A stretch of DNA of 64,000 nucleotides from Bacteroidales bacterium (GTDB taxonomy: Bacteria > Bacteroidota > Bacteroidia > Bacteroidales > F082): the NCBI GenBank assembly GCA_015491905.1, contig WGGC01000041.1, positions 1-64,000 of the forward strand, in the 5' to 3' direction. Shown here one piece after another: positions 2,394-14,841 of the stretch (within the stretch, counting starts at the first letter, position 1; the number at the start of each line of letters is the position of its first letter). Below the pieces are notes generated by a model, which did not search any database, was not told the origin of the DNA, and saw only the letters and a list, made by a program, of their open reading frames with translations. Position numbers and translations under genes: made by a program.

Positions 2394-2528
2394 ATGAAAT
2401 ATCCATTGTTGAATAATTATTAAATAACATTCACCCTGAGAAATTTTTGCTATTTCACAGGGCAAGAAGAATGCTTATTCCATTTTGTGAATTACCATTT
2501 GGCCAATGAAATATAAAATTATAAACAG
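2394..2528 (+). repeat. 135-bp dispersed nested-hairpin element, copy 1, ending at the start codon of the 2529 gene
   Basis: Ungapped alignment with 14371-14505, about 114/135 identical by hand count. Core stem ccctgagaaa (2434-2443) / tttcacaggg (2453-2462), one mismatch. Confidence 0.85.
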
Positions 2529-3320
2529 ATGAAAAGAATTATTCAAAAAGGAACTTTTATTTTATTGATAATATTTTTATTGCCAGCAACTATACTTGGG
2601 CAAAAAAGCCTAACTGCAAAAGAAGTTGTACAAAAATCTTTTAACAGGTTTTTAGGGAAAAGCAGTTTCAGCATTATGGAAATGAAAATTGAGAGGCCCA
2701 CGTGGAGCCGTAGTGTAACCATGCAAAACTGGTCGTTAGGCACGCAATATTATATCACATATATTACAGCACCTGCACGTGACAACGGAGAAGTTTTTTT
2801 AAAATATAAAAAAGATATGTGGAATTATATTCCTGCCATTAACAGGTTAATAAAAATCCCACCATCGATGATGATGCAGTCGTGGATGGGTTCAGATTTC
2901 ACAAATAACGATTTGATGAAGCAAAATAGTATTGTAACAGATTACACACATAAATTTAACAAAAGTGAAAAATATGGAGGGTATACATGTTATGTAATTA
3001 CACTGAAGCCTTTACCTGAAGCTGCTGTAGTATGGGGGAGTATTAAAATATGGATTGCCAAGTCGAATTTGAACGCACTCAAGACTGAATTCTTCGACAC
3101 ACATGGTAATTTGATAAAAACCGAAAAAGCCTCCAGGTTAAAAATTATGGGGGGAAGGCTGCTTCCATCATTTTTAGAAATGATTTCAAACACCAAAAAA
3201 GGACATCGCACGGTAATTAATATCATTTATCAAGAGTTTAACGTAAAAGGAATAAATGCAGGATTTTTTTCAATTCAGCGTATAAAAAGTTTAAGGCCAC
3301 GAACTATCAGAATTAAATAA
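2529..3320 (+). CDS. LolA-like outer membrane lipoprotein-sorting family protein
   Basis: Signal peptide (LLIIFLLPATILGQ), PTWSRSVTMQNW, MGSDFTNNDLM and LKTEFFDTHGNLIKT, typical of LolA_like proteins that accompany transporters. Confidence 0.85.
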   Translation: MKRIIQKGTFILLIIFLLPATILGQKSLTAKEVVQKSFNRFLGKSSFSIMEMKIERPTWSRSVTMQNWSLGTQYYITYITAPARDNGEVFLKYKKDMWNYIPAINRLIKIPPSMMMQSWMGSDFTNNDLMKQNSIVTDYTHKFNKSEKYGGYTCYVITLKPLPEAAVVWGSIKIWIAKSNLNALKTEFFDTHGNLIKTEKASRLKIMGGRLLPSFLEMISNTKKGHRTVINIIYQEFNVKGINAGFFSIQRIKSLRPRTIRIK

Positions 3321-13818: not shown

Positions 13819-14385
13819 ATGATAATAGGAATTGGTGGGGTAAGCAATGCGGGAAAAACAACACTTGCAAAACAATTAAAAGAACATTTAAGTAGCTTTT
13901 CTGTCAGTACTCTATGTCAGGATGATTTTCCTAATCCAATAGATAAAATTCCAAAAATCCGTAATCATGTTGACTGGGAGATTCCTGAATCCATTGATTT
14001 ATCAGGATTTTATAAAAAAATGTTGTCAGATGACAAGGAATATGATATTGTTATTGCAGAGGGATTATTTGCTTTTTGCAACAAGAAATTTGTACAACAT
14101 TATGATAAGAAGATTTTTATCACACTTACAAAAGATACTTTCCGGAAACGAAAACAGAAAGACTTAAGATGGGGAAAAGAACCGGAATGGTATATGGAAC
14201 ACATCTGGGAAAGTCATTTCCGTTGCGGCACTCTTACTTCATTTGATGAAAATACAATGATAATTTCAGGAGAAAACACTATTGATATAAATAAAATACT
14301 TTATTTTTTAAATCTTCCAAAAAGTACCTATCCCGAAACAAATGAAAATATTCCGATTCTTATAAATAAAATGAAACGTCCATGA
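13819..14385 (+). CDS. P-loop nucleoside kinase, nicotinamide riboside kinase/uridine kinase-like
   Basis: Walker A GGVSNAGKTTLAKQL, QDDFPNP, DIVIAEGLFAF, RKRKQKDLRWGKEPEWYMEHIW, resembling eukaryotic NRK1. Confidence 0.72.
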   Translation: MIIGIGGVSNAGKTTLAKQLKEHLSSFSVSTLCQDDFPNPIDKIPKIRNHVDWEIPESIDLSGFYKKMLSDDKEYDIVIAEGLFAFCNKKFVQHYDKKIFITLTKDTFRKRKQKDLRWGKEPEWYMEHIWESHFRCGTLTSFDENTMIISGENTIDINKILYFLNLPKSTYPETNENIPILINKMKRP

Positions 14386-14505
14386 TTGAATAATTATTAA
14401 ATCACATTAACCCTGTGAAATTTTTGCTGTTTCACAGGGCAAGGAAAATGATTATTCAATCATGTTAAATTCCATCTTACCAATGAAATATAAAATTATA
14501 AACAC
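14371..14505 (+). repeat. 135-bp dispersed nested-hairpin element, copy 2, ending at the start codon of the 14506 ORF
   Basis: Perfect outer 14-bp inverted repeat catgattgaataat (14381-14394) / attattcaatcatg (14451-14464) and perfect inner 10-bp stem ccctgtgaaa (14411-14420) / tttcacaggg (14430-14439). Overlaps the last codons of the kinase gene. Confidence 0.88.
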
Positions 14506-14841
14506 ATGAAACCAACTTTCAAAGTTTTATATTATCTCGATCATAGGGATATAAGTTTAATAGAAGTAAAAAGGACTGATTTAAAAGGAGAAAAAGACAA
14601 GACTAAAATATACTTTTGGATATTGATAACAAAAGAAAATAATATGGTTAAACCCTTAACTTTTGTGTCAATAAACTCAGAATTAGAGAATGAGAAACGC
14701 GAATTTAAAGAAGGTAACCTGGAATTTAACAAACATTCAGGTAGATTCCGCTCAAAAGAAGGCTTGTTTAATTTGGTAGTTATAGCGCCAGAAAAAGTCC
14801 CTCCCATTCAGTTAAATGCTATAAACGACTACCTACTATAA
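14506..14841 (+). CDS. hypothetical protein (111 aa)
   Basis: Open frame without recognisable domain; plausible Bacteroidota start context ATGAAA. Confidence 0.5.
   Translation: MKPTFKVLYYLDHRDISLIEVKRTDLKGEKDKTKIYFWILITKENNMVKPLTFVSINSELENEKREFKEGNLEFNKHSGRFRSKEGLFNLVVIAPEKVPPIQLNAINDYLL

Follow-up and report, generated by a model that had tools for sequence, protein, structure and literature searches.

A gene-free repeat of Bacteroidota that very probably inserts immediately 5' of ATGAAA, usually at a start codon

Is a folded 135-bp sequence that ends exactly at the start codon of two different genes a leader RNA of these genes, or a mobile element that provides them with a leader? The question was raised by a stretch of Bacteroidales DNA of 64,000 nucleotides, hereafter the window, in which a preliminary description had pointed to two such copies and had left both options open. 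The features of the two loci are as follows.

2394..2528, + strand: element copy 1 (135-bp long form), at the intergenic junction between a tetR-like gene and LolA_like
2434..2462, + strand: nested inner hairpin CCCTGAGAAATTTTTGCTATTTCACAGGG of copy 1, inserted secondarily into the basic family unit
2496..2501, + strand: arm CAT-X-TG (X=T) of copy 1, complementary to the stretch formed by the right junction and the start codon, with a U-G pair here
2526..2531, + strand: partner arm CA-X'-ATG of copy 1, in which the element's final 3 bp join the ATG of LolA_like
2529..3320, + strand: host gene LolA_like, 263 aa, ATGAAA start, Pfam PF17131
14371..14505, + strand: element copy 2 (135-bp long form), at the junction of a kinase-like gene with a 111-aa ORF
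14381..14398, + strand: 5' arm of the outer stem of copy 2 (fold prediction)
14411..14439, + strand: nested inner hairpin CCCTGTGAAATTTTTGCTGTTTCACAGGG of copy 2 (sequence comparison and fold)
14447..14464, + strand: 3' arm of the outer stem of copy 2, with the conserved ATGATTAT (folds and family conservation)
14473..14478, + strand: degenerate arm CATCTT (X=C, X'=C) of copy 2, where the start-codon helix is lost
14506..14841, + strand: host ORF, 111 aa, ATGAAA start, no Pfam match

Fold of the element and pairing with the start codon

The two copies align without gaps (134 of the 135 bp aligned, 85% identity, about 114 identical bases), both carry ATGAAA at their left end, and both are followed directly on the 3' side by the ATGAAA of the host gene, all as initially described. 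Identity peaks at TTTCACAGGGCAAG and in the final 23 bp, which are exactly common to the two copies, the chance expectation for such a shared terminal 23-mer being 0.00. The assignment of the copy 1 host as LolA-like was also borne out by Pfam (263 codons, PF17131). The claim of a nested fold fared unevenly: the fold is strongly predicted in copy 2 (RNA z = -5.5) and is decayed in copy 1 (z = -0.6). No other strong copy was found within the window, and copies 1 and 2 have no flanks in common. The upstream kinase-like ORF (13819-14385) was seen to run into the left end of copy 2 (14371-14385), so that its final codons, M-K-R-P plus stop, are supplied by the element sequence ATGAAACGTCCATGA.

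The basic unit of the family measures about 88-91 bp, and the 135 bp found in the window are a long form with a nested hairpin. From its 5' end, the unit consists of ATGAAAC, a stem P1 enclosing a small hairpin P2, the conserved CACARRGRNATGATTAT and the second P1 arm; then come GTTCCAT-X-TGAC, an A/T spacer and ATAAACA-X', followed by the ATGAAA of the gene. CACARRGRNATGATTAT is a long internal block, conserved and unpaired, and the GTTCCAT block is also complementary to the ATGAAAC of the unit's own left end. The element is gene-free, with no ORF inside the unit; a leader ORF that would open at the left ATG was considered and rejected, its frame, read by eye, not being conserved between members. 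In Rfam 15 (HEARO and riboswitches included) the element had no match, whether gathering scores or a cut-off of E<=1 were applied, in keeping with the preliminary statement that no known riboswitch class was recognised.

Three helices covary in the family, namely P1, P2 and the X:X' helix; covariation in homologs was one of the tests proposed beforehand. For P1 and P2, arms of the same copy paired better than arms of different copies in 5000 of 5000 permutations. The third helix, CAT-X-TG / CA-X'-ATG, spans the right junction and includes the host start codon. Watson-Crick complementarity of X and X' holds in 108 copies out of 123, when 57 were expected (C-G 72, G-C 30, A-T 6). Among non-redundant copies it holds in 41 of 46, the permutations giving 20 on average and 30 at most. 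Near-identical units of Labilibaculum differ by a paired change, C..G to A..T. It follows from this complementarity that the unit can pair with the start codon of its host, and the predicted start-codon pairing probability is 0.88 with the element, versus 0.54 at other Labilibaculum ATGAAA starts. In the window, copy 1 retains the start-codon helix (X=U, X'=G) and copy 2 is without it. As judged from the comparison of copies, P1, P2 and CAT-X-TG / CA-X'-ATG are shown to be maintained by compensatory changes.

In the long form, the basic unit encloses a second hairpin, CCCTGTGAAAT...ATTTCACAGGG. Neither the congener copies L042, L050 and L055 nor L040 have this hairpin, which other relatives (G005, G025) carry outside the element. 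Since some 40 copies carry it at the same place, the composite itself has multiplied. An essential role for the inner hairpin was ruled out by its absence from the basic family and from G002. Several variant forms were noted along the way. Two orientations of the nested-hairpin loop were seen, TTTTTGCTA and TAGCAAAAA (L012, L013, L020, L021, L029 and others), linked to AAGG or AGGG downstream, which may reflect subfamilies or loop inversion. At L031, L036 and L038, the left half of the long element is fused to a right part of another sequence (GCCATAGATGAAGGAATTTTTATT and the like); these hybrids may be truncations or another type of element. A separate palindromic repeat of the congener G005 (L047, L052, L056), with ends AGGGATTGCTACGAAATAA / TTATTTCGTAACAATCCCT, encloses the CCCTGTGAAAT hairpin, which therefore resides in unrelated repeats as well.

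Copy number, target and mobility

A whole-genome search of the source genome returned about 41 long-form copies, mostly full-length and with unrelated flanks, and a family profile, built from distant relatives and whose E-values are rough, gave 51 matches in the same 3.02-Mb, 204-contig assembly. When the species-level genome collection was searched with the pattern GTTCCATNTGACN{6,30}ATAAACANATGA, derived from diverged members in relatives, at least 115 stretches were found. Among the matches listed, all record titles that name a group belong to Bacteroidota (Bacteroidales, Flavobacteriaceae, Saprospiraceae, Prevotellaceae), the BMS3Abin03 title coming without assignment, and the genera include Labilibaculum, Agaribacillus, Terrimonas, Aquimarina and Moheibacter. 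Decayed copies are under-represented among these relatives, because the sampling pattern demands an intact right end.

Across 17 copy-bearing genomes, the profile gave from 12 to at least 150 matches per genome; these are the source genome and 16 others reached via copies, hence selected for carrying the element. Counts were 140 in Labilibaculum sp. K2S, 127 in L. manganireducens, 93 in L. euxinus, 122 in Plebeiobacterium, 85 in Agaribacillus and 44 in Galbibacter orientalis, and two MAGs had 144 and at least 150. In an even draw of the window's class, at least 47 of 295 good-quality genomes were positive, with 13 candidates scored in each. Within one genus, the copy number ranges from none detected to dozens. 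Further genomic copies, whose existence had been set beforehand as a test of the preliminary description, are therefore found both within the genome and in relatives across Bacteroidota.

The search pattern fixed only the ATGA of the right flank. Of 99 non-tandem copies, 94% nevertheless had AA at positions 5-6, as compared with 38% of ATGA starts at the same loci (p=2e-25); at position 7, C, which would lengthen the pairing, was not preferred. In 87 of 104 copies (84%), the ATG at the right end opens a reading frame that spans 60 codons or more, or that runs off the contig. On sampled Labilibaculum chromosomes, ATGAAA gene starts are outnumbered by noncoding ATGAAA sites, 100 to 250; relative to such sites, start codons are about 13-fold over-represented, in odds, among those hit, a figure that relies on a first-ATG gene model and sets copies from many genomes against a two-genome background. 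Selection against other insertions contributes to this excess.

In the source genome, the right end of about 25 of 36 distinct copies lies at a gene start, and some copies sit at ATGAAA sites that open no gene. The hosts, judged from their N-termini, presumably include KdsA, MiaB, PheS, TrpD, Pfk, endonuclease IV, rubrerythrin and PII; the genes hit there are unrelated and form no regulon. What had been described as an element ending at a start codon proves to be the target specificity of a whole family. After insertion, the upstream side retains ATGA, the host gene retains an intact ATG, and the right end of the element substitutes for the native initiation region. The idea that X' is taken from the target's own -1 base was discarded, as no clear correlation was seen. 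Two individual loci illustrate the neighbourhoods in which copies occur. In a 3.1-Mb MAG with 144 copies, one lies between trpC-like and trpF-like genes, inside a trp operon (L211, 571-660). At L115 (6800-6960), a response regulator gene precedes the insertion, which lies at an ATGA where stop and start overlap; the TGA of the regulator gene comes from the left ATGA of the element.

Queries made of joined flanks and run against nine Labilibaculum genomes revealed empty sites at six loci. Filled and empty alleles differ by exactly one unit, located between base -1 and the A of ATG, as in the filled ...aaaactatac[ATGAAACGTCC...AAACAG]atgaaaaaacaag and its matching empty site ...aaaacgatac|atgaaaagacagg. 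The comparison of orthologous loci that had been suggested for the window gave the same picture, both insertions being missing from congeners that have the neighbouring gene: the element is absent from the tetR-lolA junction in 10 of 10 congeners examined, and from the kinase-orf111 junction in all 4 congeners having the ORF. From this presence/absence comparison we infer gain of the element, and one empty site (L269) looks like a loss by recombination between A/T-rich repeats. Tandem arrays of two or three units per start codon were found at L094, L122, L197, L251 and L262, and array length differs at orthologous loci (L157 versus L169, L235 versus L261). At one orthologous site in two Labilibaculum species (L232 and L264), the unit bodies differ and X' is G in both, which suggests replacement or gene conversion between units. 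A phage vehicle was considered and dropped, viral contigs giving one degenerate match only.

Of the two options left open at the outset, the mobile, leader-providing element is the one that stood, given the dispersed copies, the tandems and the exact empty sites; the strict MITE and REP labels did not, and the genes hit form no regulon.

Search for the mobilising enzyme and competing explanations

Neither a mobilising enzyme nor an autonomous copy was found among the copy-bearing genomes and loci examined. No transposase-like ORF lies between element ends at L180, L115 or L033/L021, and the Y1 loci read had no element ends around them. Y1 (RAYT/IS200) genes are present in 16 of the 17 copy-bearing genomes, the exception being a MAG (G075) with 36 copies and no Y1 match, and they are also present in congeners where no copies were detected. 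Copies were no more frequent than by chance in the roughly 1.5 kb around the Y1 loci inspected. At L083 and L214, the Y1 (RAYT) genes are flanked by other repeated hairpins, CTTCGGGATTTGCAATCCCGAAG / CATTCGGATTTGCAATCCGAATG and CTTCGAAGTTTGCAACTTCGAAG, which are candidate cognate REPs of Bacteroidota RAYTs. A reverse transcriptase was rejected as mobiliser, since six copy-bearing genomes, the source (G000) included, gave no match; it is thus not needed for maintenance. On two chromosomes, 85 of 114 copies (tandems merged) lie on the leading strand, compared with 54% of ATGAAA genes (p=0.002) and 58% of all genes (p=0.001). This bias is opposite to that expected of a bottom-strand IS200-like substrate, and gene selection may contribute to it.

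The element is, very probably, a non-autonomous and site-specific mobile element of Bacteroidota, whose point of insertion is exactly the boundary of base -1 with the A of ATGAAA, usually a start codon. The pairing that spans the junction would act at integration as a guide choosing the target and the right junction; this role of X:X' is inferred, and an RNA acting on translation would predict the same pairing. The integrating form may be a folded single strand or a circle, and each insertion would recreate a target, which would lead to tandem arrays. In the mRNA, the unit would form a new leader and hold the start codon in a stem of 6 bp around an A-rich loop, an arrangement that the host gene presumably tolerates or uses. 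We propose more tentatively, as a possibility to which we give a little less than even weight, that this is a new mobile class: a folded, protein-free unit of about 88 nt that locates translation starts by pairing with CAX'|ATGAAA, spares both neighbouring genes and gives the host gene an entire new leader, the final helix of which holds the start codon, and that is moved by an enzyme so far without a link to a known transposon family.

Several other explanations were weighed. That the two window copies reflect one segmental duplication, or chance similarity, could seem to fit a window with only two strong copies; the lack of common flanks, the relatives throughout the phylum, the number of genomic copies and an exact match far beyond chance make this next to impossible. 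It is also improbable that the element is chiefly a cis-regulatory leader RNA, in which P1/P2 sense a signal, the start-codon helix gates the AUG and usefulness drives the spread. The covarying helices, the conserved unpaired block, the raised pairing probability of the start codon and the strong placement at start codons would all suit such a leader, but the hosts are unrelated housekeeping genes without a regulon, copies occur at ATGAAA sites that open no gene, copy number within a genus falls to none detected, and copy 2 of the window has lost the start-codon helix. Likewise improbable is an integron- or Xer-like site, where a tyrosine recombinase would act on folded or circular units at CAX'|ATGAAAC and build cassette-like arrays. 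The junction between tandem units is indeed the target, and the inverted repeats ATGAAAC/GTTCCAT surround the hairpin; against this, the ends depart from the attC core consensus, the units are geneless, and the target is genome-wide instead of one attI site.

The last alternative specifies the enzyme within the mobile-element explanation: the unit would be a minimal single-strand transposon of the IS200/IS605 or REP type, with a Y1 HUH transposase acting in trans. Read on the bottom strand, one end is flanked by TTTCAT and the other is made up of it, CAX'ATGGAAC at the foot of the hairpin would be the guide, and Y1 genes are nearly always present. Bacteroidetes-specific Y1 genes of subclass 2.6 are reported to be flanked by atypical dispersed structures that have no GT[AG]G foot and are copied elsewhere in the genome (PMC6006769), which speaks for a Y1 route. 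We nevertheless regard it as rather unlikely, in view of the lack of convincing linkage between element and Y1, the other hairpins that flank the RAYT genes of L083 and L214, the congeners with Y1 and no detected copies, the MAG with copies and no Y1 match, and a strand bias opposite to that of a bottom-strand substrate on the lagging-strand template.

Relation to known systems and significance

Like REP/BIME sequences (RAYT, including Y1 subclass 2.6), the element is short, folded, geneless, multicopy and dispersed between genes. It differs from them in being longer, with fixed ends and exact insertion before ATGAAA; the GT[AG]G foot of REPs is absent from the top-strand consensus of 64 diverse copies, and, unlike REPs, it shows no excess of copies around the RAYT (Y1) loci inspected. 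Compared with a DDE MITE, its ends ATGAAAC and ATAAACAX' are not inverted repeats and there is no variable target duplication: the left ATGAAAC is retained even where the right flank differs, and the net insertion is one unit. IS200/IS605 elements insert beside a fixed short target without variable target duplication. Their derived MITEs and palindrome-associated elements are likewise non-autonomous, multicopy and hairpin-bearing, and our element shares the fixed short target at one junction (ATGAAA in 94%, exact empty sites). In contrast to these derivatives, it has a strict start-codon placement, a long conserved block and a strand bias that runs counter to the one simply expected, to which gene selection may contribute, and no autonomous parent or matching transposase was found for it.

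HEARO RNAs exist as standalone copies inserted just upstream of ATGA or GTGA, and start-codon placement is not known among their traits. Set against HEARO and IscB omega RNA, the element is smaller, has a different conserved sequence and matches nothing in Rfam. Leaders of translational riboswitches also have a folded 5' domain followed by a helix holding the AUG, with conserved structure, but the element is mobile, with dozens to at least 150 copies per genome, in front of unrelated genes. Integron attC arrays share with it a folded site with inverted ends, as well as tandem arrays that regenerate the junction; they differ from it by a unit that here has no ORF, by genome-wide targets and by a misfit to the core sequence. 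A published description of the element was not found in the open-access literature. Short non-autonomous repeats are a known kind; insertion at start codons together with a pairing helix defines none of the families tested, and there is a substantial chance that the element represents a new class.

In some Bacteroidota, the 5' leader of a few percent of genes has been replaced by the element, with up to at least 150 copies per genome, and the housekeeping genes affected include pheS, pfkA and miaB. Such an insertion specificity for start codons is unusual, and explains how a compact genome tolerates many insertions. It also leads to the prediction that many mRNAs of Bacteroidota have a base-paired start codon, in a phylum where translation initiation is poorly understood. 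The X:X' pair offers a direct test with a single base change, and knowledge of the enzyme would reveal the way in which DNA is placed precisely at translation starts.
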